From positions 1 through 40,905 of the forward strand of contig PLUB01000008.1 of the NCBI GenBank assembly GCA_003164755.1: DNA of 40,905 nucleotides, read 5' to 3'. Shown piece after piece: positions 7,118-32,175 of the stretch (the stretch's first letter is position 1; the number at the start of each line of letters is the position of its first letter). The notes beneath the pieces are model-generated. The model searched no databases, was not told the DNA's origin, and saw only the letters and a program-made list of their open reading frames with translations. The DNA comes from Methanosarcina sp. GTDB lineage: Archaea > Halobacteriota > Methanosarcinia > Methanosarcinales > Methanosarcinaceae. The position numbers and the translations under genes are program-made.

Positions 7118-8050
7118 TTAAATTGCAAAACCAACTTCAGATTTAGATTTGATCTTTATCAATATATAATTTTTCATCTTTGACCTTGAAATATTTGCAA
7201 GCTCAGAAAGGATAACGCCTTCATCAAATTCCAGCTTTTCAATTTTTTCATGAAATTCATCATATGGTAGTTTGACCCTGATCCCATCGAGCTGAAGGGT
7301 AAGCGGAGCAGGAGAAAGCGCACTGTGAATCTCCGGGATCTGATTTTCGATCTCTGTCATGACTTTGGCAGGAATAACTGAGAGTGGATCTTTTGACTGT
7401 TGTCTACGAATATCATCAGCTATTTTCCCAATCTCTTTACTAAGTTTATCAAGGGCGTTAACTTCGTCTGCTTTCCTTAATCTATGAGAGGTCCTTCCGA
7501 TATTTCCAACATAAAGGTCTGCTCCTGGAACTTCTTCAGTTTTCAGATCAGGCCCCCCTGTCACAACAATGGGTATTTCGATACCTTCGAAGAGTTTTGG
7601 CTTCTTATTAATAATGCAGTCACTGAAAGCTCCGAATGTGAATACTGCAATATCATGTTCATTGATAAGTTTTCTTTCATAGTCCATAGATAGGGATACC
7701 CTTCGTCCCATACCTCTGGCGAGACCTATCATGTTTGTGTTAGCTCCAGGACTGCGAAGCGATTCCGCTACATCACAGGCTGAATGCGGAAGATGGTGAG
7801 AGGCAAGAGTCGGCGAAACAATTGCAATCTCCACACCTGTTAGGGGAGCTTCTGTAATGATTCCAAGAAGTTTATCAGATTGCTTTTTTACAATCGGAAC
7901 ATCCTTTTTAGGGATAAGCATTATAAGGTTGACTTCAGTCCCAGTAACTACTTTTTGGATTAGGTAGCCTCCTAGATCTTCCAGCAGTTCAATTAAAAGC
8001 CCATGTTTGTGGACACCACCGGTGTAAAGATAGGGAGAGAGTACAGCCAT
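7118..8050 (-). CDS. mmp7: Methanogenesis marker protein 7 (Mmp7)
   Basis: 310 residues matching the Mmp7 family: LSPYLYTGGVHKHGLLIELL at the N-terminus, the conserved SPTLASHHLPHSACD segment, GLARGMGRR and FSDCIINKKPKLFEG. Mmp7 occurs in methanogens and has been associated with the ATP-dependent complex that activates methyl-coenzyme M reductase together with McrC, Mmp3, Mmp17 and component A2; this role is from family knowledge. A GTG at 8062 is also in frame, but the ATG at 8050 lies 2 nt after the mmp17 stop codon with a GGAGCAGGTGA site upstream. Last marker gene of the operon. Confidence 0.92.
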   Translation of the reverse strand: MAVLSPYLYTGGVHKHGLLIELLEDLGGYLIQKVVTGTEVNLIMLIPKKDVPIVKKQSDKLLGIITEAPLTGVEIAIVSPTLASHHLPHSACDVAESLRSPGANTNMIGLARGMGRRVSLSMDYERKLINEHDIAVFTFGAFSDCIINKKPKLFEGIEIPIVVTGGPDLKTEEVPGADLYVGNIGRTSHRLRKADEVNALDKLSKEIGKIADDIRRQQSKDPLSVIPAKVMTEIENQIPEIHSALSPAPLTLQLDGIRVKLPYDEFHEKIEKLEFDEGVILSELANISRSKMKNYILIKIKSKSEVGFAI

Positions 8051-8051
8051 C

Positions 8052-8651
8052 TTATTTTTCACCTGCTCCCGTCAATTCTTCGAGCATCTCTTCTGCCTCG
8101 ACGATCCATTCATTTTTTAATGCTTCCTCGGACGCTACAAAAATAAATCGATTACCTTTATATAGATGGTAGCGAACTCTAAAACCTTCTGGAGTGACTC
8201 GAATTGCAAAATCAACCAGATTTTCGTGGATCCTATGCCTTGGATCTGCAACCATCATTTCTCTAATAAAAGCCGCTTCTTCTTCTGACCTATCAGTACT
8301 TATAACTACAGTCAAGCGATCTGGCTGGCTGATGTTCGCTTTTCCATAAAATTCCCAAAGTTTTTCTAACAGCTCCGGAATATACTGCTCCGTTTTGATA
8401 GAAATTATTATCTTCTTGGCAAAAGATTTTGATTCCACGTCGGCAATATCAACTGTCTTAATCTTGCTACCGACATCCCTGAGGATTATTACCATCTGAA
8501 AGAGGGAATCTCCTGGTCTTAACACGACCTTAATCCTTCCAACTGCCGGAGCAAGCTTGAGACTTGCAAGGTTATCCTCGATAATTTTCCTGTAAAACTC
8601 CTGCTCCGAAGCGATTACTGAATCTACAACAAAGGTCTCAAGAGAATCCAT
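8052..8651 (-). CDS. mmp17: Methanogenesis marker protein 17 (Mmp17)
   Basis: Protein of about 199 residues of the Mmp17 family, recognised by FVVDSVIASEQEFYRKIIED near the start, PAVGRIKVVLRPGD, and the C-terminal RVRYHLYKGNRFIFVASEEAL. Mmp17 has been placed in the methyl-coenzyme M reductase activation machinery. The frame opens further up: ATG 8666 overlaps the mmp15 stop (ATGAGTGA) and is the other plausible start; 8651 is chosen because GAGTGAGAG precedes it. Tightly packed between mmp15 and mmp7. Confidence 0.9.
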   Translation of the reverse strand: MDSLETFVVDSVIASEQEFYRKIIEDNLASLKLAPAVGRIKVVLRPGDSLFQMVIILRDVGSKIKTVDIADVESKSFAKKIIISIKTEQYIPELLEKLWEFYGKANISQPDRLTVVISTDRSEEEAAFIREMMVADPRHRIHENLVDFAIRVTPEGFRVRYHLYKGNRFIFVASEEALKNEWIVEAEEMLEELTGAGEK

Positions 8652-8658
8652 CTGTCTC

Positions 8659-9906
8659 TCACTCATCCACAAAGCCAGAAGCGAGCAAAGCGGCTCCTAC
8701 AGCTCCTATTAAGTGGGAATTTTTCGGCACAAGGACATTGAGCTTAAGGAGCTTTGTGAGAGCTTTTGGAACTCCTTCTATAAGAGAAGATCCGCCTACC
8801 AGAATCAATGGCTCTTTAACATCTACTTCCTGAAGTTGCTGCTCGTAGATCTGTTCCACAACACTATAGCAGGCTGCAGCTGCCACATCTTCAGGACTAG
8901 CTCCTTTGGCAAGAGAATTTACAAGAGATTGTATTCCGAAAACTATGCAGTAACTATTCATAAATACATTTTCTTGCATTCCTTTGACTGCCATAGCTCC
9001 GAAATCAGTAATATCTACACCAAGACGCTTTGAGATCATTTCAAAGAAGCGCCCTGAAGCTCCGGCACAGATACCTCCCATTGTAAACATTCCAGGAATA
9101 CCATCCTCAACTGATATTGCTTTATTGTCCATACCACCTATATCAATAACCGTTGCAGAGCCTTTCTGCCTATTCGCAAGATAAACAGCTCCCTTAGAGT
9201 TGACGGTGATTTCTTCCTGGATAAGTTGTGCTTTGAAATGGTTTCCTACTAGGAAGCGTCCATATCCAGTAGTGCCCAAGGCCTGGATTTCTTCTATGGA
9301 AACCCCAGCTTCTTTCAGGGCAAGAGAATATGCTTCTTCTGCGCTTTCAATAACCTTTGTTGTGGGCACCCAGCCTTTACCTATAATTTCATTATCTTTC
9401 ATAACCACTGCTTTTGTAGTTGTTGAACCAGAGTCGATTCCTGCAGTCAGTCCTGACTGAATTTCTCTTGTAAGAAGGTGCTTGTGCCTGACAATGGTTG
9501 TCAAAGCTTCCAGACGAGTAAGCAAGGTGCCTGCACTGGTGCGTTCGGTGAACGAATAACTAATTACCGGGACGCTTGAGTTCTTATGGATGTACCTTCT
9601 AACCTCATTTCGGACAATAGCCCCTTCAGCACAGCGGAAGCATGTGGTAATAAAAACTCCATCTACATTGGTTGTTCCCTCAACAACAGCCTTTGCACGT
9701 GCCATCATGAGCCTCAGGTCTCCGCTCGCAACCTCAAGACCGAAATCCCTACTTATTGTATCCATGTATGCGATGTCAATCTCAGGGTAAACGAATTTTG
9801 CATTCACTTTGTCTGCAGCAGATTCAAACTCAGGCTGAACCCCGGAATACTCAGAACCACAGGATACAAGGGCAATCTTGACAGGTTTCAATTCTTCAGA
9901 ACTCAT
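8659..9906 (-). CDS. mmp15: Methanogenesis marker protein 15 (Mmp15), ASKHA ATPase
   Basis: 415 residues. The C-terminal two thirds form an ASKHA ATPase like the activators of 2-hydroxyacyl-CoA dehydratases: phosphate loop [10 protein letters not shown] at 156-165, TTGYGR near 212-217, IDIGGMD near 255-260, and cysteines C280 ([11 protein letters not shown]) and C320 (NSYCIVF) where activators hold a shared 4Fe-4S cluster. The N-terminal ~145 residues carry a CFRC motif (89-92). Family members are methanogen markers; ATP-driven electron transfer during reductase activation is inferred. ATG overlaps the mmp5 stop (ATGA), with AAGGAG upstream. Confidence 0.93.
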
Positions 9907-10406
9907 TTTCCGGTCTCCTTTTCTGAAGGTTCTTTATCTGCTACTTTTTCATCATGTCCCAGCTTTTCTTTAGGCAATGATTTCAGAAATTCTACTATTT
10001 TACTCACGAAGTCATGAGCTTCCTCGTCTAACTCCGGATACTTTATCTCTAGAACTGGTACCCCTTTCGAGCGAATCAAATATTTCATCAGTTCATTAGT
10101 ACGGTTACAGCCCACGCAACCGAAGTTTGTAGGTGGATTTTCGACTATTATTGAAGCTTCTGCAGCTTCTATAAGGGGACCTATTAGGGCCATCCTGCCT
10201 CTGACTCCTGGAGGAACTTCAATTGCGGCATATCGAAGCCCTAATTTAGGATCTTCAGGAGTAATATTCAAAGGGGGAGAATCCAAGCTAATACTTGTAA
10301 CCTTTTCTCTTATTTGGTTCATGATGACAAGGGGTTTGTGCCCGAAGCGCTCAATAAGGTCAGCCAAAATAAGACTATTTGCAGGATAAATGAAAACCTT
10401 TGCCAA
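9903..10406 (-). CDS. mmp5: Methanogenesis marker protein 5 (Mmp5)
   Basis: Small methanogen-marker protein of about 167 residues, recognised by [21 protein letters not shown] at the N-terminus and [16 protein letters not shown] and [12 protein letters not shown] (a C-x2-C pair) in the middle. Function unknown. There is no ATG: a TTG at 10406 (AKVFIYP next) with GAGGTGA just upstream is the most likely start, although the frame is open to a TTG at 10433 inside mmp6. The last ~20 residues are charged and low-complexity. Overlaps mmp15 by four bases. Confidence 0.88.
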
Positions 10407-10410
10407 CAAC

Positions 10411-10854
10411 TCACCTCGCAAGCTCCTCTTCAATAATTTTTTCCAAAACAGAAACTTTAATCCTGGATTTCTCCTTAAGTTTTTCTCTTAAAGGTGCTTT
10501 TTCTTCCAGTTCATCCAGTGCAGCTCCTATGGCAGGGAGCATCTTGACTTCTTCTCTAAGGAAATGAAATCCCGGCCGTGGCCCCCCTCCAAGGGTTGCA
10601 CGACAACGCCTTTTGTCTCCTGCAGGAAATCCTCTATCTTTGATAAAAATATGATTTTTATCCAGCTGCCTAATTCTTTCGATCACTGTCTGGACCTCAT
10701 CCTTCGGTCCTGTTACTATAAGTCCAAAACAGGTCTCTTTCACCGTAACCGAGAACTCCGATTCATAGATTTTCATAGCTGCATCTGATGGCAGCACTTT
10801 ATCTGAACTGATTACAATGTACTTTGTAACCGTTTCATTTTTTGTTTCCGTCAT
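10411..10854 (-). CDS. mmp6: Methanogenesis marker protein 6 (Mmp6)
   Basis: 147 residues of the Mmp6 family: KYIVISSDKVLPSDAAMKIY near the start, FGLIVTGPKDEV, then RGFPAGDKRRCRATLGGGP and GFHFLREEV. Role unknown but confined to methanogens and always near the other markers. The frame runs 93 nt further up, but ATG 10854 is preceded by GAGGAGAG and starts the conserved region. Its stop TGA overlaps the ribosome-binding region of mmp5, so the two are translationally linked. Confidence 0.9.
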   Translation of the reverse strand: MTETKNETVTKYIVISSDKVLPSDAAMKIYESEFSVTVKETCFGLIVTGPKDEVQTVIERIRQLDKNHIFIKDRGFPAGDKRRCRATLGGGPRPGFHFLREEVKMLPAIGAALDELEEKAPLREKLKEKSRIKVSVLEKIIEEELAR

Positions 10855-11150
10855 CTTTTGTCTCTCCTCAGCAACGGGAAACTTTAAATTCGATGGATTC
10901 ATACCGCGAATTTCTTTAAGCACCCACGTTATATTTAACAAGCACATTACAACGAGTTAACTTACTCATTAGCAAGCTTTTATCACAGTAGCAGCCAGCT
11001 TATTTGTTAGTTTTTAATTTACCTTTTATTACTACGATAAAGTATGAATAACATCTTTTCATATATTACAACTAATATTTATTAGATTAGCTATTATCTC
11101 ATCTTCTTCCTTTCAGTCTCATTTTCTTAGCATTTTATTTCAGTTTACTT
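10855..11150. promoter_or_regulatory. Long leader between mmp3 and mmp6 with candidate promoter
   Basis: A 296-nt AT-rich gap interrupts an otherwise tight operon. On the minus strand TTAAATATAACG (about 10928-10939) resembles a TATA box and would give a leader of about 50 nt before mmp6. This suggests the distal genes mmp6-5-15-17-7 may have their own promoter. Inference from spacing and sequence only. Confidence 0.4.
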
Positions 11151-12701
11151 TTAAAATACTTCACTTATGTATATCGCATCTCCTTCCTCGATATCTTTAA
11201 GCTTCGAAGGCTCGATGATCCGTCCTATAAGGTTGGTTGAGGAAAATTTTTCTCCAGTGGGGCCGAAAAGATCATCATCTACGAGTTTGACCCCTATAGT
11301 CCCCATCCTCTTTGCTGCCTGGTTTGTGATCCCTATTTCCCCAGCAAGTATCTTGTTCATTGGCGTATTTTCTGGGAGGATTTCTTTATATTTTACGGTT
11401 TCTTTTTCAGTTTTGAATAGGTAGGTATTATCATATATCATGTAGACAGGCAATTTTCCAACTGTTTTTGTCTTAAGTCCAAGAGAATGACGGAAGAATT
11501 CCACAGATTTAGGCGCTTTATCAGGGTAAAGTTCAATTTCAATACGTTTTGCCTTGGAAACCGCATAAGCAGTTACTTTTGCTTCTCCAAGAATTTCCAG
11601 CGTTGTAGATGGATCATGGCTGACAATTACTGCATCCTTTCCAGTATATCCGGCCTTTACTAGTTCAATTCCTATGGAGGAAAGTACGGGATTGATCTCT
11701 TCAAAGCTATGGCCAAGAAGTACTATCTGGGGAGGGATACTTTCAACTGATATTTTCTGTCCCACTTTTGCCAGCTTTATAAGTTCAAGACCTTTAGTTA
11801 CATGCCCTACAACCGAATGTACAAGACTTGAAGGCAGTTCTTCTTTGGAGATATAGGTTCTGCCTGTTCCGTATCCTACTGTGCGGATCGAAATGGTCCC
11901 CTCGTTTCTCGGCTCAAAATTTTCGTATGGAACAGGTTCTTCTTTAAGGCTATCATCCGAGATAAATGAGCTAGTAAACACATCCACAGTGAGTGCCCCT
12001 TCTCGGGTCAGGGCATAAAATTGTTCTGCTCCTATTGGAGAGTTTCTGGAAAGCTCAGCCTCGAGATAAGTGAATATCCCATTTCCATTTTCAAGTGGTG
12101 TAGAAAGGTCAGTAGTGGATGTTTTTTTTGCGAGTTGTTCCCATTCTATAATAGGCTTGATATTCAAAATGCTATCCTCTCTCGAAAGTCTGAACAAAAT
12201 TTTTCTCCCTGTAACAACTTCTGCAAATGCACTGTCATTAGGAGCCCCATACTCTGCAGTATGCCTTTTTCGTGAAAATATAAGATGAGTATTACTGGGG
12301 TCAAAACCTCCTGCACCGAAAAGGACATCAAACGCTTCAAAGCTTTTGACTTCATGCGAAGGCTTAATATCAGCTTCAAAAGGCCCGAAAGCCAGAGCTT
12401 CAGGACTGGCCCAGTGGACAGGTTTTCCTTCATATTCTTTAAAATGCTCAGCCCATAATTTTCCTGAGGGAGACTCACGATTTTTAAGTTCGATCCTGAA
12501 TTCCCCCTTAGGAGTATTGATAGCGTATTCAGTGATTATCTCCATCCTTTTCTCAGCAGTCTCTTCCAGAATAACAATTGCAGTATCAGCTATGTAGGGA
12601 GCTCTGGAAATTTTAAGGACATCTCCAAGGGTAGAGCCTTCAGGTAAAGTATATTTTTGACCGTTCACCTCTACGCTGATCTCATTACTCGTAATCAGCA
12701 C
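11151..12701 (-). CDS. mmp3: Methanogenesis marker protein 3 (Mmp3)
   Basis: 516 residues of the Mmp3 family. The N-terminus (VEVNGQKYTLPEGSTLGDVL) looks like a ubiquitin-fold TGS/ThiS-type domain; the middle carries FGAGGFDPSNTHLIFSR and HSVVGHVTKGLELI, and the C-terminal part has a cyclophilin-like segment (IEIELYPDKAPKSVEFFRH). Mmp3 has been assigned to the methyl-coenzyme M reductase activation complex. Start is GTG at 12701; no ATG lies upstream in frame, and GTG is only weakly supported by the adjoining AATGAG. It follows atwA by 43 nt. Confidence 0.9.
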   Translation of the reverse strand: MLITSNEISVEVNGQKYTLPEGSTLGDVLKISRAPYIADTAIVILEETAEKRMEIITEYAINTPKGEFRIELKNRESPSGKLWAEHFKEYEGKPVHWASPEALAFGPFEADIKPSHEVKSFEAFDVLFGAGGFDPSNTHLIFSRKRHTAEYGAPNDSAFAEVVTGRKILFRLSREDSILNIKPIIEWEQLAKKTSTTDLSTPLENGNGIFTYLEAELSRNSPIGAEQFYALTREGALTVDVFTSSFISDDSLKEEPVPYENFEPRNEGTISIRTVGYGTGRTYISKEELPSSLVHSVVGHVTKGLELIKLAKVGQKISVESIPPQIVLLGHSFEEINPVLSSIGIELVKAGYTGKDAVIVSHDPSTTLEILGEAKVTAYAVSKAKRIEIELYPDKAPKSVEFFRHSLGLKTKTVGKLPVYMIYDNTYLFKTEKETVKYKEILPENTPMNKILAGEIGITNQAAKRMGTIGVKLVDDDLFGPTGEKFSSTNLIGRIIEPSKLKDIEEGDAIYISEVF

Positions 12702-12744
12702 CTCATTTTAGCATTTGTTTTCATACAAAAAGGTGGCAGAATAT

Positions 12745-14358
12745 TTATAGTTCTTCTGCAGCTTTGATCCATTCTTCTTCAGTGAGGTGTGAAAGTACAT
12801 TCTTCGGTTTCCCTATATCCACGATCTTCCCTTCTCGCATGAGTGCTACCCTATCACATATCTCGTTTATAAAGTCCATGTCATGAGAAACTATAACAAA
12901 GGTTTCCCCGATTTCTTCTCTAGCTTTAAGAATGGAGGTTGCCACAGACATCTTAGTAATTGGATCCATTGTTCCTGTAGGTTCATCCATTATTACGATT
13001 CTTGGTTCCTTTATAAGTACCTGCGCAAGTGCAATTCTATGCCGCTCTCCTTCACTTGTTTCATCAGTCATTTTGGGTAAAATGGCTTTTGCTTTTTCTT
13101 CTTCAAAGCCTGCAGCTTTGAGGGTGATTAAAGCTTTTTTGACACCAAGCTCGAAAGGCAAGTCCAGGCTGATAGATTCAGTTAGGTTATCTACTACGGA
13201 GCTTTGAGTGTAGAGACCGTATTCTTGGTGTAGGAATCCCATATATTTAGTTGCCCTTCCTTTATTTTTCACTCCCAGCTGTGTCATATCAACCCATTCA
13301 TCTCCTACCCGAACCTCAACTTCTCCAGAAGTAGGTGGTAAAATTCCCATCAAAATCTTCGAGGTGGTAGTCTTGCCTGCTCCGCTAACACCGACTAGCC
13401 CAAAGATCTCTCCTTCTTTTACATCAAAAGAGATTTTATCCACAGCTCTTACTACACCACGATCTACCGATATATAACGTTTAGAGAGGTTCTTTATTCG
13501 TATAATAGGCTCTCCGATCATGGTATTCGTTTCTTGTTTCACCATGCATATGCTCTTCATAAAAACTGCAGAGACCTCTACTGAGTTCCCTTCCTGAACT
13601 ATCTCTCCGTTTTCAAGAAGAATTGCTTTATCTGCTAGATTCTCGATGACCTCAGGCCAGTGGGAAGTAAAGATCATGCTCATATTGTAATTTCTTACTG
13701 CTTTAATAATTGCATTATGTACTAACTTTGCAGTCATTGGGTCGAGGGTACCTGTGGGCTCGTCGGCTAACAAGAGCAAGGGATTTCTTACCAGCTGTCT
13801 CGCAAGTACAACTCTCTGTTTTTCTCCGCCTGAAAGTTCTCTTGCAACATGCATCATTCGGTGGCCCAGATTTACTTCTTCCAGCAATTCAACTGCCTTT
13901 TTTACGGAATTCTGCCCCTGATACCCAATCTCATGTAGGGAGTTTATAACGTTTATAATAACTCTTTCGTCGCCATAAAGGGCAAAGGAACGCTGCAGCA
14001 TGATTGCAATTCTTTTGGTAATATCTTTCCTTATCGGATCATAAAGGGAAAGTTTTATAAAATCAGCTTCAAAAGTTTCGAGTATCTCTCCACAAACCAG
14101 GCACTTCTGGTTCGCCATGCTTGGGCGTTCTATGAATCCGCACTTCTTACAGCGGGCAAGATGGTAAATTACTTCACCTGATATATTTTCATAAGTTTCA
14201 GTCCCGCGCAATACATGCATCAGGATTGTTTTTCCTGACCCACTTTTTCCCAAAACTCCAACTATCTCCCCTTCATTGACACTTAAATTTAAATTTTTCA
14301 GCGCTTTAAGACCATCAAAATCTACATTTAAATTTTTAATTTCAATGAAAACTGGCAT
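12745..14358 (-). CDS. atwA: Methyl-coenzyme M reductase activation component A2
   Basis: ABC-type ATPase of 537 residues with two nucleotide-binding domains and no membrane segments; provides ATP hydrolysis for reductive activation of Ni-F430 in methyl-coenzyme M reductase. Domain 1 has GVLGKSGSGKT (Walker A), LSGGEKQR (signature) and LLLADEPTG (Walker B); an insertion near residues 69-90 carries C-x2-C ... C-x2-C, a probable zinc finger. Domain 2 has GLVGVSGAGKT, a variant signature TSEGERHR, and IVIMDEPTG. ATG follows GGAGGAGAATTA. First gene of the seven-gene marker operon. Confidence 0.95.
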   Translation of the reverse strand: MPVFIEIKNLNVDFDGLKALKNLNLSVNEGEIVGVLGKSGSGKTILMHVLRGTETYENISGEVIYHLARCKKCGFIERPSMANQKCLVCGEILETFEADFIKLSLYDPIRKDITKRIAIMLQRSFALYGDERVIINVINSLHEIGYQGQNSVKKAVELLEEVNLGHRMMHVARELSGGEKQRVVLARQLVRNPLLLLADEPTGTLDPMTAKLVHNAIIKAVRNYNMSMIFTSHWPEVIENLADKAILLENGEIVQEGNSVEVSAVFMKSICMVKQETNTMIGEPIIRIKNLSKRYISVDRGVVRAVDKISFDVKEGEIFGLVGVSGAGKTTTSKILMGILPPTSGEVEVRVGDEWVDMTQLGVKNKGRATKYMGFLHQEYGLYTQSSVVDNLTESISLDLPFELGVKKALITLKAAGFEEEKAKAILPKMTDETSEGERHRIALAQVLIKEPRIVIMDEPTGTMDPITKMSVATSILKAREEIGETFVIVSHDMDFINEICDRVALMREGKIVDIGKPKNVLSHLTEEEWIKAAEEL

Positions 14359-23337: not shown

Positions 23338-23973
23338 TCATGCTATAAACACTACATTTATCCTTTTCACATCCCATAAAGACCTCAGCTTTTCTGAAAT
23401 GTCCTCTTTGATTGCCGAAGCAAATTGGTGATCTGCAGGCAAATCTACAACCACCCTCACCACTCCATCTTCAATACTTGTTTTAAGGATAAGGTTCGTG
23501 CGGATAATATCAAGGCCCGTTAGTGGATTCATGACGTGCTTGAGCCTGCTACGGACAACTTCTTCGGTTGTAGTTTCTTTTTCGATAACAAGCCCGTGCT
23601 TTTCTTCGTAGTCCCGAATCGCAGCACGCAGGCCCTCAACTGCAAGCACTGAGCAGTGGGCTTTGATTGGAGGGAGCCCTCCAAGTTCTTCAGAAGCCAG
23701 TTTCCATGTTATCTTCTTTGCCTCGTCGAGAGTCTTCTCACGTGCAAGGTCTGTAATGACAGAAGCTGTGGCAATATTTGAGGCACAGCCGTAAGATTCG
23801 AATTTTATGTCTTCAATAACCTTTGTTTCGGGATTTACTTTAATATAAACTGCAACCATATCTCCACATGCCGGGCTTCCCTCAAGGCCTTTTCCATCAG
23901 GATTTTCTATATTTCCCACATTGTGTGGGTTCCTAAAATGCTCCAGCACCTTTTCACTGTAAGGAAACTTCAT
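23338..23973 (-). CDS. iscU: IscU-type Fe-S scaffold fused to a DUF59/MIP18 domain
   Basis: 211 residues in two parts. Residues 1-130 are an IscU scaffold with all three ligand cysteines: C36 in PACGD, C63 in YGCASN and C107 in AHCSVL. Residues 141-211 (RLKHVMNPLTGLDIIRTNLI ... WDVKRINVVFIA) match the DUF59/MIP18 fold found in SufT and Fe-S targeting factors, although the usual Cys of that domain is absent (PADHQF). This replaces the NifU C-terminal domain. The gene follows the iscS-like gene by 88 nt, so the pair likely forms one Fe-S assembly unit. An IS5-type relic abuts its 3' end. Confidence 0.88.
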   Translation of the reverse strand: MKFPYSEKVLEHFRNPHNVGNIENPDGKGLEGSPACGDMVAVYIKVNPETKVIEDIKFESYGCASNIATASVITDLAREKTLDEAKKITWKLASEELGGLPPIKAHCSVLAVEGLRAAIRDYEEKHGLVIEKETTTEEVVRSRLKHVMNPLTGLDIIRTNLILKTSIEDGVVRVVVDLPADHQFASAIKEDISEKLRSLWDVKRINVVFIA

Positions 23974-24061: not shown

Positions 24062-25228
24062 TTATTTTCTTCCAAGGGGGCTTATTTCCCTGAGCCTTGC
24101 CACAATTTCACTCATTGCTTCGATTGCTGCATCAGCATCTACCATGTGATTGTAGCGCCCGAAGGTAAAGCGTACCGAACCATGAGCTCTCTCATGGTCT
24201 CCTCCTATACCTCTGATTACGTGGCTGGACTCAAGAGAACGGCTAAAACAAGCTGAACCTGTGCTCACTGCAAAACCCTTCATATCCATAAGCAAAGTTA
24301 TGGATTCCCCCTCTACATAATGGAAAGTCAGGTTTGCATTATGTGGTAGGCGTTTTTCTCGGTTTCCGTTGAGGGTTACATCAGGGATTTCGGAAAGAGA
24401 TTTATCAATTACCCGGTCTCTCATTGCCTTAAGATGTCTTATTTCCTCTTCGGTTACGAGTTCTACAGCCTTTCCAAATCCAATAGCTCCGGGTATATTT
24501 TCTACCCCTGCCCTCAAGTTGAATTCTTGAAAACCTCCGTCCATGAATTTATTTATTTGGGTATCTTTCCGGATAAAGAGAGCCCCTATTCCCTTTGGGC
24601 CGTGAATGGTATGAGCGGACATTGTTATTAGGTCTATGGGCAATTCTTTCACACTAAGGGGAAGCCGTGTAAAGCTATGGGTAGCATCGGTATGCAGGAG
24701 CACATCTTTTTCTTCACAGATTTCTGAGATAGCCTTCAGGTCCTGCACTGTTCCTATTTCCTGGTTTCCGTGCTGAATCGAGACAAGAACTGTCTCTTTT
24801 GTGATCGCTTTTCTTAATCCATCAATATCTGCAAACCCCTCTGCATCCACGTCCAGAAAAGTCACATCAAAACCCTGTTTTTGGAGGGCTTTTGCAGTGT
24901 TCAGCACAGAAAAATCCTCTATCTTCGAGACAATAATATGCTTGCCTTTCTTATCCTTAAGAGCCCAAGATACTCCTTTAAGTGCTGTATTGCTCGACTC
25001 CGTGTCACCAGAAGTGAAAATTACCTCTCCAGAGCTTGCTTCGAGTTTTGAAATTATGCTTTCACGGGCTCTTTCAAGTCCTTCTTTTGATTCTGTGCCC
25101 ATAGAGTAGCCAAATTCAGATGTAGCTACTGCATATCTATCAAAAAAATAAGGCGTCATTGCCTCAAGTACCCGTTCATCCAATCGGGTGTTTGCGGCAT
25201 TGTCAAGATAAATTATATTCTCAACTAT
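24062..25228 (-). CDS. iscS: Cysteine desulfurase homologue lacking the PLP lysine (IscS-like)
   Basis: About 388 residues of class-V aminotransferase fold. The N-terminus IIYLDNAANTRLDERVLEAM is encoded upstream of every ATG, GTG or TTG; at the expected start an ATA (25226-25228) follows GGAGGG with 6-nt spacing. If translation instead began at TTG 25183, the conserved LDNAANT strand would be lost. The catalytic Cys is present (TGSACFS, C327), but the PLP Schiff-base Lys of SAHK-x2-GPKG is Thr (SAHTIHGPKG, T207), the PLP-stacking His is Asp (KIEDFSVL) and the Gln of DAVQ is His (DATHS). A PLP-independent or scaffold-partner role with the IscU-like neighbour is likely. Confidence 0.85.
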   Translation of the reverse strand: MVENIIYLDNAANTRLDERVLEAMTPYFFDRYAVATSEFGYSMGTESKEGLERARESIISKLEASSGEVIFTSGDTESSNTALKGVSWALKDKKGKHIIVSKIEDFSVLNTAKALQKQGFDVTFLDVDAEGFADIDGLRKAITKETVLVSIQHGNQEIGTVQDLKAISEICEEKDVLLHTDATHSFTRLPLSVKELPIDLITMSAHTIHGPKGIGALFIRKDTQINKFMDGGFQEFNLRAGVENIPGAIGFGKAVELVTEEEIRHLKAMRDRVIDKSLSEIPDVTLNGNREKRLPHNANLTFHYVEGESITLLMDMKGFAVSTGSACFSRSLESSHVIRGIGGDHERAHGSVRFTFGRYNHMVDADAAIEAMSEIVARLREISPLGRK

Positions 25229-26000
25229 TTTTTTCCCTCCTCAGTTTGGATAATGAATTCTTAATTTTAAATTTAACATTTTAGAGTTTCCAGCAAATTG
25301 ATGAAATATTAGGATTAGAATTCTATATCTAATAATTTCGTTTATGATAGCAGATTGGAGTCGAAACCTAAAATAGTTTCACGTCTTTAAATATAGAAGA
25401 ATATATTGCAATTGAAATAAAAATGATCGCTGCAGCATACTCCCTCAAACAATATTAAGTATTGGGAATTGCAATCAAAAATGAGTCCCCAGAGTTTTTT
25501 ATTGAAGAAGTACTATTTAGATCTATAGAAGATCCTGTTAAACTAGAATAACCTAGCTATATCTATTTAAATGTATAAGAGTCAATTAGATAGATGTCAA
25601 ATATTCTGTTGTTATGATTTTAACTATCTTGCTATTAAGGCTATTAGAATTGCAATTATAGTAAATATTAAAAAGGCTAAATACGGTAATATTATTATTG
25701 GTACATGAGACAAGTTCTTTATCAATAATAGCGTTTCATAATTTTTACTAATATCTTACCCATAATACACCGGCTCTTACTCCAAATATAAATTCAATGG
25801 TATCCTATAATAATGGATATATAATTTCAAACATCTTTAACATCTATAATATCAAATTTTGAAGCATCCAACATAGCAATCTGCAAAAAAAAATAATATA
25901 CATTTTTATGACTTCAGTTATGAATATTACTGAACCTATATCAATACTTATCTATCATAAAACATCAAATTTTCAAGATAAATAATGGCGAGAAAAAAAG
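25229..26000. other. Intergenic, no gene seen
   Basis: About 770 nt of AT-rich sequence; the first part holds the iscS ribosome-binding site (25235-25240). No gene or repeat recognised. Confidence 0.5.
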
Positions 26001-26216
26001 TTATGAAGTAGTGGAACTAATACCACTTTGCACAAAAGATACGCAATTTTTCCGAAGTGAAGTAGATCTGTTGATGTATGCAGCATCAACAGTATTATCC
26101 AAACCAATTCGTGATGAATTTTGATTTTCATAATGGTTAATTCTTCTAAAGCTCGGACATATATTCATACCTCTTGGGGCTTTCGTATCTCCTATATGAG
26201 ATGTCTCATGCCATTT

Positions 26217-26477
26217 CTAATCCAAACAATAAACATTGTCATCCTGAGTTGTGTTATGAGATCCTGAAGAGGTATGAGCATAAATAATCGCCGAAGATGA
26301 ATTATTTGGTTCTACAGCAAACGATCCTGCTAAAAGGATTATTACCAACAAAACTCTTACCGCTTCTGATACTGAAATATCCAACTCTGATTCAATCAAG
26401 TTTGAAATCGGCGGAAACAATACAAAAACTGCCATAAATATGAATACAGCTGAAAAGTATTCACGTTCGATAATCAT
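26217..26477 (-). CDS. Membrane protein, 5'-truncated or non-canonically started
   Basis: 86 residues with two hydrophobic segments (YFSAVFIFMAVFVLFPPI and VRVLLVIILLAGSFAV) separated by SNLIESELDIS. The frame is also open upstream to 26549 and encodes RWIFGLFFIIIALG, a plausible first membrane helix without a start codon; together these resemble a family of archaeal small membrane proteins with FILGLLFLLLGL-type helices. The ORF ends with TAG, after which the same frame stays open to a TAA at 26001 (72 more codons). Either decayed or amber-read-through; function unknown. Confidence 0.5.
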   Translation of the reverse strand: MIIEREYFSAVFIFMAVFVLFPPISNLIESELDISVSEAVRVLLVIILLAGSFAVEPNNSSSAIIYAHTSSGSHNTTQDDNVYCLD

Positions 26478-26814
26478 TCCTAAAGCGATTATTATAAAGA
26501 ATAATCCAAATATCCAACGGAGTATGCAGGTTAACGTTATTTTTATGGGTTATTTTGGATCCATCTCTATATTCCAAACAATTTTTCTATTTAATATAAT
26601 AAAATAATGATATTTATATTAATGTATAATACTTGATCTCGGTTTTTGCAAAGTTAAATATTTGATTTAATTTTTTCTGATCATAAATATCCAAAAATAG
26701 GTAAAATCAGAAGAACTCTGCATATCTTGACAACTATAGCTCAAAAATTCTTCAAAAATCCAATGAAGAGATTTGCATTAGAATCCCTTGCTTTTTGGAT
26801 CTACGAGCCCAAAA

Positions 26815-27175
26815 TTCACCGTTAAAGATCGATTCAATTCTAAGCCCTTATTTCGTTATGCCCATGATTTCATGATAATTTCGGTGGATATAATCTTTCA
26901 TCGGATTTCCTTGAAATCATTCATTTGTCTTTCAAATGGAGCAAATTAGCCTTATTATTCGTCTTTTTTACCATAATCCTGCCAAATCCCAGCATATTCA
27001 TCTTAGGAAATAGCTTTTTTCAAGCTCTCCTTTCTCCAATCTCATTAGCTCCCAGAAAGTGAAATAGCATAAAGGTTTACGTGCCCATTTCCAAGGCTCA
27101 GTTTTCAATTATCAGTATATGATACCTCTTGTCCATATCACCACTGTGCAATACAATTACCGTCTTTTCTTCCAT
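26815..27175 (-). pseudogene. DsrE-family protein, broken
   Basis: Begins MEEKTVIVLHSGDMDKRYHILIIEN, the typical DsrE/peroxiredoxin-like N-terminus, then TGA (27098-27100). The same frame continues ALEMGT-stop-TFMLFHFLGANEIGERRA-stop-KKLFPKMNMLGFGRIMV, matching the family's FF-FWGL and KMNMLGLG segments; later pieces lie in shifted frames. At least three nonsense codons show inactivation. AAAGGAA precedes the ATG, 12 nt after the end of the read-through tusA frame, so it was once cotranscribed with tusA. Confidence 0.65.
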
Positions 27176-27186
27176 TTCTATTCCTT

Positions 27187-27414
27187 TTACCTTCGGATCT
27201 TTATCTCCCACTCTTTTCCTCCTTCTTTATCCTAGATTTTCAGCACTTCGAGCCCCATTGGTTTGCAGGCCATAGGAATCTCTTTCTTAGATGCCAGATG
27301 CGTGTCCTTTACAATCAAAATGTTCCCTGGAGATGCTCTCTTGAATGCTTTTCTGCATATTACCAGCGGAACCGGACAAGTCTGCTCACAAACGTCGATT
27401 TCCATTTCTGCCAT
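27187..27414 (-). CDS. tusA: TusA-like sulfurtransferase with in-frame TAG
   Basis: Small TusA/SirA/YedF-type protein. The first 60 codons include the signature C-P-x-P in VCEQTCPVPLVICRKA and end GLEVLKI at a TAG (27232-27234). The same frame then continues DKEGGKEWEIKIRR to TAA, exactly the missing last strand of the fold, giving a normal 75-residue protein with the TAG at position 61. In Methanosarcina TAG can be read as pyrrolysine; alternatively a CAG-to-TAG nonsense mutation occurred, which fits the broken dsrE neighbour. Extra cysteines (DVC, MAC) are present. AGGAGTAGGA precedes the ATG. Confidence 0.75.
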
Positions 27415-29765
27415 TATTCCTACTCCTATATTCGAGAAATAGAAGTTTCTTGAAACAGTTTCTGCTGCCTAACCCTAAATTCATGTATTTAAAAAATATA
27501 TAATTTTATCGTGTTGTAAATATTATTTAGGAATCACCCTGACCCTCTTATTCGGAACTGTCGTTCTATTCAGAGTGTTCTCCTGATTTACTAAGGGCAA
27601 TTCTCTCTTAAAATGATTAGCTTACCATATTTATTTAGGTGAATGTTAACACATCATGCCCTTAGGAATCTTCTTTAAATCAGCCTTGGATCTCTAGAAG
27701 CAAGAATCATTTAACGATAGATTGAACTCACTTCTGTTCAGACACTAACTCCTCTATTTGTTATTATTTTCTGGAGTTGTCAAAATTTAATATTGATTCC
27801 TAGCAATCAACCAACTTCAAAAAAACCCAGAAGGCAAATATAAGTCTCATATTTATTTTAGACATAACTTGAGTTCTTGTTCTTGAGTCATTATCAAATA
27901 TGGATAAAAGAGAGCATATCACTCTTTTTGGGGAAAATACAAAAAATTATTGTGCTTACTATTTTCAGTAACTCAGGGGCATGACTAAATGTTTGAAATA
28001 AAATTATCTCTTTACTTAAGAGCACACTCCTAAAAGGATATAAAAAGTGAAAAATATTCGAAAAAAGGAATTTTTGATCTGAGGAACGTCAATACTTACG
28101 TTCAATAATTTGAATTTAGTTACTCAACGTTTGTATCCTTTTTTTATTTTAAAGATTGTTGTTACTGTCCCTTCCTAATCGAAATCTTCCGTCATCAAAA
28201 CCAGTTCCTAGCCATCTTTCCTGATACTTTCGGGCTCGATTATCTGCGGCTGCAGATGTACGTCGTAAATCTTGGGAGAATCATATTTCCATAGTTTTAT
28301 CACTTAATAGCTCTATGTTAGCGAAAAAAGGAATGTTACAATTAATTAATATTGAAATGAAACTGTAAATAACCCGGACAATAGTTCGGTATCAAAACCC
28401 TCAAGCTCATTTTTTTGCATATTCAAAAAAGTTTGTTTTATTTCCTAAATATTTTATTTCTATGTTGTTGGATCTGTCATCCGGTACCACAGTTGCAGGT
28501 ACTCAAGAACCAGAAATAAAGGCAACATTTTCTGTTAAAACATTGCTATTTTTCCGATTTTGCACTTAATTTTGGTATATTTTTTTCCTTCAAAAGATAA
28601 AAATAGGGACATTTTTATATTCTGTTGTTTCATGGATTTTAGGAAAACAATGCATTTTCCCTAAATTTCGGTAAAAATGTCCCATAATTTCGGTAAATGT
28701 GTCTTAATTTTAGCTGAAATTGAAGTAATACATGGGATTTGAAATAAAAAACCTGTTCATAATAAATTTAATTTATTTTCAAGTTCTACAGGGAACTGTC
28801 TTCATATTTTTATGCAATTAGTTGAAAGGTTTGATAGATCAAGTTTTTGATCATTTTGGGATCATATCAGCATATATTAGTTGTTGACTTGATTGTTAAT
28901 CATTCAAAATTTTTACTCGCTACCCAGTCATCCAAATGCATACTCTAAACTCCATCTGTAGGAGTACTTGAAAACCTTTGACTTCACCGCTCACTCCAAT
29001 ATTAACCTGTATCAAACCACTAACTACTTTACTCAATCAACAAGTTCACAATTGTATCCAGAATAAATTCAAATGCGGTAAAATCTGGAAAAGAGCCCAT
29101 GAATTCATTCCCATAACAAGTTTAGCCACACAACGATCCGAGATATCCATCGCATGGATTATCACTGTACAGTAGCTTTTATAGTACCCACTATCAATGT
29201 CACTTTCGTTTTCTTAGCTAAGTCCTCTGTAAAGTATTATATTATGCTCCCAAAATTCTTCAAGGTGAAAAAGACGAAAACATGGCAGACAAATTTATAA
29301 TTTGTAAATTTATGATTTCCCAGCAAAATCAGCATATAGCTGGATTTTCAATCACCACAGCAAGCTGCTATTTTATTCGACTGAGATAATAAAATGTGAA
29401 TTAGCTGCTGACTTGACCGTTATTTGAAGAGTTGTTAATTGAATATAATAGCTTAAAGATTAATTTTATGCATCGTATTTAATCATCAAGAATAATTTGG
29501 ACTGTATTAGTCTGATCCCAGTGACTTTTTCTAAATTAAGTATAGTGGTTAGATATCAGAAAATATGATTCGTTTGTATTTATATCCATAAGTGGATATA
29601 ATTTAGCTATAACTATTTAAAATCCAATTTGAGTTTTGATAGACATATCTGATTAATTATGTGCGTAGTAACAAATTAATGTGCACATTGTATTCAAAAA
29701 TTATAGAAGAACAAAAGTTAAATTTGTATAACTCATCAGAAATTCGTAATTAAGAAGGTGTAAAA
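27415..29765. other. 2.3-kb gene-poor spacer
   Basis: No intact gene recognised. Around 28160-28290 the minus strand has a locally G+C-richer, coding-like stretch (RRTSAAADNRARKYQERWLG in one frame) that I cannot assign. A 20-bp palindrome TATATCCA-TAAG-TGGATATA lies at 29581-29600, about 165 nt before the next gene. A 65-codon plus-strand frame at 28978-29175 has no gene-like features. Confidence 0.5.
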
Positions 29766-31137: not shown

Positions 31138-31536
31138 TTACCAAGTGTGACCGCAATTATTACCGCACCCACCCTGGTTCATGCGTCCAAAATTACTGAA
31201 TAGGTCTTTGCAACCAAAATTAAAATTATTTCCCCAGCCGGTAAACCCAATCTCATTGCCCCCACAGTTGTTTCCACCAAATCCATTGTTATAGCAATTG
31301 TGTTGGTCACCGCATCCACAGTTATTTTGGTTCCCGCACCCGCAGTTATGCTGGTCCCCGCACCCACCGCTGGGTTGGTTGGGGCAAGGGCAGTTGCATA
31401 CAGTGGAAGTGGTGGTTTGGCAGGTGCCACTTGGGCAGTCTGCAGCAGCTGCCGCAGCTGTCAACGATACTATAAAAAAAACTACCAGCAATAGGCTAAG
31501 TGTCTTTTTTATCTTATTGATTGTTAGTTTTACCAT
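31138..31536 (-). CDS. Secreted Cys/Gly/Asn-rich protein A
   Basis: 132 residues. The signal peptide (LSLLLVVFFIVSLTAAAAAA) is followed by a mature region with 15 cysteines: CPSGTC, TVCNCPCP, then an 8-residue repeat CGCG[DN]Q[HN]N in about three copies, and a Gly/Asn/Phe-rich tail with GGCGNNCGH. No known family recognised; disulfide-rich or metal-binding surface protein is a guess. ATG 31536 follows TTGGAGTG. A tandem paralogue (B) lies upstream at 31759-32175 with the same domain order, the same cysteine number and a matching upstream region. Confidence 0.75.
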   Translation of the reverse strand: MVKLTINKIKKTLSLLLVVFFIVSLTAAAAAADCPSGTCQTTTSTVCNCPCPNQPSGGCGDQHNCGCGNQNNCGCGDQHNCYNNGFGGNNCGGNEIGFTGWGNNFNFGCKDLFSNFGRMNQGGCGNNCGHTW

Positions 31537-31631
31537 TTTAATACACTCCAAAATTTTGTCCTATTTGATAGAAATTTAAGGTCTTTTGCTTTTCAATTTA
31601 CTTCCGTTGGCAGATACTCTGCGCAAAAATT

Positions 31632-31647
31632 ATTCTATACATAAATT
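31632..31647 (-). promoter_or_regulatory. Candidate promoter of secreted protein A
   Basis: Minus-strand AATTTATGTATAGAAT, about 100 nt before the start codon, resembles an archaeal TATA box and is conserved in the copy upstream of protein B. The following block (TTTGCGCAGAGTATC) is also conserved and may include the transcript start. Confidence 0.5.
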
Positions 31648-31758
31648 GTCCAGCTTTTTTTTTGAAAGATACATCACTATCAATTAAATAGTCTCATTGT
31701 ATGTCGAGAAAGTGATTTCAAATAACATCAACAGATTATTATTTTTTAGACAATATAC

Positions 31759-32175
31759 TCAAAAGTTGTTAAAACAATTGAACATGTCGTGGTCATGGAA
31801 GTCATTATTGTTTTTTTGTTCATCACACATTTTGTTACAACATTTTTGTTGGTTATCGTTCGCACAGTTGTATTGGCCCCCGCATCCACAGTTGTTTTGG
31901 TTCCCGCACCCACAGTTGCTTCCAGCAAATCCGTTGTTACAACATTTTTGTTGGTTATCGTTCGCACGGTTGTACTGGTCCCCGTACCCACTGTCTTGAT
32001 GGCCACTTGTGAAAGGGCAAGGGCATTTGCATACAGTGTTAGTGGTGGTTGTACAGTTGTAATCGTCAGGATGTTCTGCCGCAGCTGCCCATGATGTTAA
32101 AGTAACTACTGTAAAAAAGACTAGCAGTAAAATGCCAAGTGTCTCTTTTGTCCTCTTAAATGTTTGTTTCCCCAT
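31759..32175 (-). CDS. Secreted Cys/Gly/Asn-rich protein B
   Basis: 138 residues with a signal peptide (LGILLLVFFTVVTLTSWAAAA) and 15 cysteines. It shares TVCKCPCP and CGCGNQNNCGCG with protein A and adds two copies of ANDNQQKCCN, encoded by a ~35-bp direct DNA repeat (around 31830-31865 and 31932-31970). The acidic Asn/His/Asp tail (NNNDFHDHDMF) could bind metal. Unrecognised family. ATG follows TTTGGAGTG. A and B arose by tandem duplication of about 640 bp including their upstream regions. Confidence 0.75.
   Translation of the reverse strand: MGKQTFKRTKETLGILLLVFFTVVTLTSWAAAAEHPDDYNCTTTTNTVCKCPCPFTSGHQDSGYGDQYNRANDNQQKCCNNGFAGSNCGCGNQNNCGCGGQYNCANDNQQKCCNKMCDEQKNNNDFHDHDMFNCFNNF

Follow-up and report, generated by a model that had tools for sequence, protein, structure and literature searches.

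IscS1 of a Methanosarcina species carries threonine in place of the Schiff-base lysine of cysteine desulfurases, and the same set of pocket changes defines, on sequence comparison, a clade of Methanosarcinaceae and bacterial proteins that is described here for the first time. The loss of Lys from IscS1 and its comparison with Archaeoglobus fulgidus IscS are already in print, in passages of Deere 2020 (PMC7585200). A further new feature is that Lys loss appears, from gene neighbourhoods, to be tied to TusA/DsrE neighbours in two clades, including that of A. fulgidus. Because most of the Lys-less relatives are encoded next to sulfur-carrier genes, we propose that IscS1 may act as a PLP-free persulfide relay from TusA/DsrE2 through Cys327 to the scaffold IscU-DUF59, a reading to which we assign a probability of about 0.45.

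Pocket residues of IscS1 and their conservation

The iscS1 gene lies in a stretch of 40,905 nucleotides (contig PLUB01000008.1; the window), where its frame runs uninterrupted through 388 codons and a stop (Table 1). Its product has the class-V aminotransferase fold, and the solved structure nearest to it by sequence is A. fulgidus IscS (4r5f/4eb5). Foldseek with an AlphaFold2 model of moderate quality (13-row alignment; mean pLDDT 71.8, <50 at residues 1-43, 207-212, 227-242 and 322-347) returned 1p3w as the top match (E 1.8e-34), in agreement with an IscS fold. IscS1 stays under the NCBIfam cut-offs in the best 25 of the 41 families matched, including NifS (434 against 530.75 bits) and IscS (375.5 against 643.2 bits). 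Among the features expected of an active IscS/NifS enzyme, the fold and the catalytic Cys loop are present, and the Schiff-base Lys and the stacking His are replaced by Thr207 and Asp105.

In E. coli IscS, we take Lys206 to form the Schiff base to PLP, His104 to stack on PLP, Gln183 to contact its O3′ and Thr243 its phosphate, Cys328 to be the sulfur carrier, and Asp180 and Arg354 to be cofactor and substrate contacts. The original prediction, made from the window alone, had named an intact fold and catalytic Cys together with three changes at the PLP site, and the fold, the Cys and the substitutions of Lys and of the stacking His are all as it described. Its third change, DAVQ to DATHS, stands only for Gln183 to His, E. 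coli IscS itself reading DATQ, and the pocket differs at two more residues than it counted, Asn155 (Gln) and Thr243 (Val). Thr76, Asp180, Ser203, His205 and Cys328 are unchanged in IscS1. Judged by these residues, the pocket looks hostile to PLP. A sequencing error or a pseudogene is unlikely, given the intact frame and the dN/dS values below.

Table 1. Features of the iscS1 region, by window position. Pocket sites were read by alignment with E. coli IscS, and their conservation was counted over 26 rows.
Feature	Position	Strand	Evidence
iscU1, NifU_N scaffold domain and DUF59 (FeS_assembly_P)	23338..23973	-	profile matches
iscS1, Lys-less IscS paralogue, 388 aa	24062..25228	-	Aminotran_5 (PF00266), E 2.9e-70
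Cys327 (E. coli Cys328), in STGSACFS	24248..24250	-	26/26
Val242 (E. coli Thr243)	24503..24505	-	non-Thr 25/26, Thr in one
Thr207 (E. coli Lys206), codon ACC	24608..24610	-	Thr 25/26, Met in L029
His184 (E. coli Gln183)	24677..24679	-	26/26
Gln156 (E. coli Asn155)	24761..24763	-	26/26
Asp105 (E. coli His104)	24914..24916	-	26/26
ATA start of iscS1	25226..25228	-	ATA in 33/33 close relatives
GGAGG, Shine-Dalgarno-like, 7 nt before ATA	25236..25240	-	similar site in 33/33
dsrE2 remnant, 10 stops and frame breaks	26762..27175	-	tblastn with relatives' neighbours
tusA remnant, CPVP retained, one in-frame TAG	27187..27414	-	tblastn with relatives' neighbours

The change at the Lys site is not a local mutation with Lys kept in relatives, since Thr was found there by motif in all 120 homologues listed, the window's own included (7,964 matches; 8,000 candidates scored). 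The Thr, Asp and His changes were predicted to be conserved in related genomes, and indeed D104, Q155, H183 and T206 (E. coli numbering) occur together in 53/53 unique genes of this Thr type, all of which also retain Cys328 and have Val, Leu, Ile or Met for Thr243. Asp180 and Arg354 are likewise invariant (53/53), and Thr76 (52/53) and His205 (51/53) nearly so. The Thr type, complete or partial, was present in 28 of 30 genomes in a search of the genus, and in a phylum sample 55 of the 61 genomes from Methanosarcinaceae, the family of the window, had it and none of 331 others did, the two groups being split by score (≥508 bits for the Thr type, ≤465 bits for the others). The clade also includes 11 full bacterial loci, from Syntrophaceae, another Deltaproteobacterium, Dehalococcoidia, Chloroflexi and Eubacteriales, which are 63-68% identical and share the pocket changes except in L029, where Met occupies the Lys site and Thr243 is kept; a twelfth bacterial locus (L034) is partial. 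As predicted, there is a lineage of Lys-less IscS proteins with IscU as partner, and it is not confined to archaea. Its occurrence in one archaeal family and several bacterial groups suggests a putative inter-domain transfer.

The genome of the window additionally encodes two Lys-containing IscS proteins (L002 and L003) and a further protein of 30% identity (L004), which is SufS-like as named by eye. Elsewhere in the genus, one genome carries two iscS1 copies (G018; L006 and L007), another Methanosarcina iscS1 is frameshifted (L031/L068), and in a 99% complete genome (G023) IscS of either type was not found, the best match being SufS-like at 32%. There is a third Lys-less type, with Gln (L225/L103), which sits on a long branch and is adjoined by IscU and TusA.

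By its pocket residues and its adjoining IscU-DUF59, IscS1 fits the group of M. acetivorans IscS1 (MA0808), the orthologue according to residue numbering and context, STGSACFS falling at 318 if codon 5 is taken as the first. At L061, which we take to be the M. acetivorans locus, IscS1 is 83% identical and agrees at all ten site residues, IscU is 88% identical over 211 aa, and tusA and dsrE2, decayed in the window, are next door. As in the window, M. acetivorans IscS1 is adjoined by IscU1, which has 24.2 kDa according to published passages. In the passages of Deere 2020 (PMC7585200), M. acetivorans IscS1 is described as lacking PLP-binding residues including the essential Lys, and as adjoined by four genes of unknown function; A. 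fulgidus IscS is described there as devoid of desulfurase activity because it has Asp in place of Lys, a replacement that the original prediction had also named, and M. acetivorans IscS1 as a protein that may act like it, the A. fulgidus Cys being a ligand of the IscU cluster. According to Deere 2020, IscS1 produced by itself ended up in inclusion bodies. A. fulgidus IscS (PDB 4eb5, 4hvk, 4r5f) is ~44% identical to the window's IscS1 and has in common with the Thr type the missing Lys, the retained Cys, the IscU partner and the tusA-dsrE association. In contrast, the Asp type to which it belongs keeps His104 and loses His205 and Arg354, whereas the window's protein has Thr207 and Asp105, and A. 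fulgidus IscU is shorter, at about 150-160 aa.

Sulfur-carrier genes beside Lys-less iscS

In relatives of the window, tblastn with neighbouring proteins gives a usual Thr-type gene order of tusA (PF01206), dsrE2 (PF13686), iscS and then iscU-DUF59, and in L022, L026 and L030 (Chloroflexi, Anaerolineae) an order of iscS-iscU-tusA-dsrE2. The Asp-type IscS of Archaeoglobi has the same kind of neighbours. A. fulgidus itself possesses a complete tusA-dsrE-iscS-iscU set, whose IscS is an 87% identical paralogue of the crystallised protein; the crystallised copy has a shortened dsrE before it, and a tusA match is absent within 1.5 kb. These two A. fulgidus iscS-iscU loci (G146; L144 and L145) encode identical IscU sequences, and one of them only has tusA and a full dsrE. 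A Thi4-family gene lies just upstream of iscS in L224 (6840-7697) and in L222 (4121-4906, named by eye); the iscS is of the Thr type in one case and a different iscS of G204 in the other.

The association was tabulated over 145 unique IscS genes (53 Thr, 22 Asp, 1 Gln, 1 Met and 68 Lys type), from which 30 duplicates had been removed. These were drawn from 221 loci, 41 of which have no IscS match reaching 330 residues and 230 bits, including the partial or frameshifted Thr-type loci L025, L031, L032, L034, L067 and L068 and the Asp-type L136; five more (L033, L183, L188, L215, L221), all Lys-type and free of tusA or dsrE matches, were left out for an alignment running past a terminal stop. A tusA lies within 1.5 kb of 48/53 Thr-type, 21/22 Asp-type, 1/1 Gln-type (L103), 0/1 Met-type (L029) and 1/68 Lys-type genes, and a dsrE within the same distance of 45/53, 8/22, 0/1, 0/1 and 1/68, respectively. 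CPxP is retained in these tusA genes (48/48 Thr type, 21/21 Asp type), and the Cys motif, sought with one pattern, in the dsrE genes (45/45 Thr type; 6/8 Asp type, one of the two that miss departing from the pattern solely at the residue before). The Lys-type gene L189 was rejected as an exception, its divergent tusA-dsrE belonging to an Asp-type iscS (L223) in the same locus. With tusA counted on the same strand, 70/75 Lys-less against 0/64 Lys-containing genes have it within 1.5 kb (Fisher p 3.7e-34, ignoring kinship), the test covering the 139 of 145 genes with full flanks or a match and omitting six matchless genes with short flanks. The Lys-type set is not a random one and includes 36 of 40 stretches from the best-scoring canonical matches.

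A tree of 81 of the 145 rows, built without the trait columns, places the losses of Lys at two points in its best topology, one for the Thr, Met and Gln types together (support 100/96) and one for the Asp type (100/100). The prediction had grouped the Methanosarcina protein with that of A. fulgidus; on this tree the Asp and Thr types form separate supported clades, although their union, and with it a single origin of Lys loss, is not rejected (AU p 0.189). Only two independent pairs are available for tusA and Lys loss. With about two losses of Lys, and a single origin not rejected, the association statistics rest on very few events.

Several Lys-less genes have no tusA within 1.5 kb. These are the window's gene and its nearest relative L005 (through decay, or a tusA ~2 kb off), two at contig ends (L007, L027), L084, L029 and the crystallised A. 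fulgidus copy (L116). The genomes of L084, L027 and L029 encode an intact TusA elsewhere, and those of L084 and L027 a like-sized DrsE_2 frame as well; in the L029 genome (G415), the single DrsE_2 match falls within an 825-codon ORF that also has a TusA match. At L017/L226, tusA without dsrE2 precedes iscS1, and a second tusA-dsrE2 pair lies ~2.7 kb downstream. In a literature search of titles and abstract starts, with subscription papers mostly outside it, a link of tusA or dsrE to Lys-less iscS was not found, and the passages of PMC8351635, PMC4175335, PMC10500019 and PMC3035285 contain no mention of a Lys-less IscS.

Decayed carriers and an ATA start in the window

The neighbour of iscS1, predicted to be an IscU-DUF59 protein, is indeed NifU_N fused to DUF59, and the translation retains the cysteine motifs CGD, GC and HCS. 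Upstream of iscS1, ~4.5 kb (25240-29760) hold a single ORF of at least 80 codons and constitute a gene-decay stretch with the tusA and dsrE2 remnants. In L005 the tusA frame is intact and dsrE2 is dead as well, and the genome of L005 (G016) encodes an intact TusA and yields one weak match to DrsE_2 outside the operon. In the window's genome, which is 92.5% complete, an intact TusA was not found, the sole TusA being broken by the TAG, nor was a DrsE_2 match found anywhere; among 11 genomes checked, it alone has neither. Reading the tusA TAG as pyrrolysine was considered, and no PylS exceeded the cut-off in this 92.5% complete genome, which makes a stop likelier without proving it.

Against L005, dN/dS is 0.12 for iscS1 and 0.09 for iscU1, compared with 0.06 for iscS1 in the L017-L006 pair. 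Selection still acts on IscS1 and IscU1 in the absence of the carriers, though it may be slightly relaxed. Since both genes remain constrained though the carriers have decayed, a TusA/DsrE2 relay is not strictly required, and no other result weighs as heavily against an obligatory one.

The boundary given for the gene in the original prediction implied an ATA start, which comparison supports. Among 33 Thr-type genes with at least 77% identity and a readable start, from Methanosarcina and the neighbouring genus g7 and including the window's, codon 2 encodes Phe in 32/33 and Val in the window, codon 3 shows synonymous differences alone (GAG/GAA), and codon 4 encodes Asn in 28/33. No in-frame ATG, GTG or TTG occurs between the preceding stop and the end of codon 5 in the window's gene, and 10 of the 33 genes have none there. 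The 22 more distant Thr-type genes start with ATG (16), GTG (4) or TTG (1), one having no aligned start, and database proteins among the 120 homologues listed start at codon 5 in 90 cases and at codon 1 in 9. The conserved ATA start could possibly serve translational control. Elsewhere in the window, 31138-32175 encodes two predicted proteins, related to each other and rich in Cys and Asn, that contain repeats such as CGCGNQNNCGCG, and 7118-14358 holds a cluster that presumably resembles methanogenesis marker proteins and the ATP-binding Mcr activation component.

A relay through Cys327 and its alternatives

From the observed and conserved residue changes, the association with carrier genes in the operons of relatives and the constraint on iscS1 and iscU1, we infer that TusA would dock on a PLP-free IscS1 and that TusA/DsrE2 would hand persulfide sulfur to Cys327, which would in turn pass it, by a route independent of PLP chemistry, to the adjacent-encoded IscU-DUF59 scaffold for assembly. 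IscS normally donates sulfur to TusA, a flow opposite to the one proposed. The arrangement resembles the E. coli relay of IscS, TusA and TusBCD (DsrEFH-like), in which TusA docks on IscS and persulfide moves between cysteines, except that E. coli IscS is a PLP enzyme and the donor, whereas the window's IscS1 would, on the proposed reading, accept sulfur and conduct it onward. According to passages of PMC2854127, TusA stacks on Trp45 of E. coli IscS, and TusA and IscU occupy different sites on it; the Trp45 position is hydrophobic in 52/53 Thr-type, 22/22 Asp-type and 7/68 Lys-type genes, a lead noticed after the fact. In passages on A. vinosum DsrEFH, the DsrE protein carries a persulfide for onward transfer (PMC3397948). 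A minimal ISC system (MIS) is described in passages of PMC12192291 as IscS and IscU with no dedicated carrier, like the window, although with a cysteine desulfurase, whereas the window's IscS1 lacks the catalytic Lys.

Against a relay, the window's genome keeps iscS1 with no working TusA/DsrE2 found, dsrE2 is dead in L005, and L029 has Met and no tusA nearby. As TusA/DsrE2 have decayed in the window's genome, sulfur would have to reach Cys327 there by another way, be it sulfide, polysulfide or a canonical IscS. The same constraint in the apparent lack of working carriers favours a role in which IscS1 gives no sulfur and its Cys is an extra ligand of an IscU cluster formed from free sulfide, as passages of Deere 2020 report for A. 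fulgidus IscS and suggest for M. acetivorans IscS1 (PMC7585200). The original prediction, which envisaged sulfide use or a structural partner, had overlooked the tusA and dsrE2 remnants upstream, which suggest a relay instead; we regard the ligand role as a serious though doubtful alternative, which gives no account of why tusA accompanies Lys-less and not Lys-containing iscS, Archaeoglobi included. The decay upstream of iscS1, together with a dN/dS about twice that of the L017-L006 pair, might also mean that iscS1 itself is decaying in this lineage after the loss of tusA and dsrE2. With dN/dS far under 1, 388 intact codons and all clade residues retained, this is very improbable.

The remaining alternatives concern what docks on IscS1 and what its pocket holds. 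IscS1 could bind TusA and IscU and divert sulfur from IscS2/IscS3 as a dead-enzyme competitor, the flow being reversed or regulatory, and both docking partners are indeed encoded alongside in relatives and canonical IscS is present in the window's genome. However, three of the 11 bacterial genomes (G406, G407 and G410, all MAGs) have the Thr type and no canonical IscS match, and the conserved Cys motif exceeds what a competitor needs, so this role is improbable. The invariance of Asp180 and Arg354 and the near-invariance of Thr76 and His205 would not be explained by a bare relay and may leave room for another pocket ligand. Indeed, the new residues are themselves invariant, which suggests that they are used, and Lys227, a candidate for a shifted PLP lysine, is present in 13/13 rows of alignment A1, in a part of the model with pLDDT <50. 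A pocket rebuilt to bind PLP with no Schiff base, to use another Lys such as Lys227, or to bind a different ligand is still a decidedly improbable reading, the stacking His, the O3′ Gln and the phosphate Thr all being changed.

If the persulfide relay through Cys327 is correct, we tentatively envisage that Methanosarcinaceae, Archaeoglobi and several groups of bacteria have a branch of Fe-S assembly that does not depend on PLP, in which a dead desulfurase would be the gate through which inorganic persulfide from TusA/DsrE2 enters IscU, and cluster sulfur would never pass through cysteine. The proposal bears on two puzzles, namely how Fe-S assembly in sulfide-rich anaerobes receives its sulfur without cysteine desulfurase, and what feeds A. 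fulgidus IscS, so far a structural curiosity for which a source of sulfur has been lacking. Were TusA/DsrE to feed Lys-less IscS, both puzzles could be put to the test in M. acetivorans, which is genetically tractable. The window's species, in which the carriers are apparently lost and IscS1-IscU1 are kept, would serve as a natural experiment to tell which component is indispensable.
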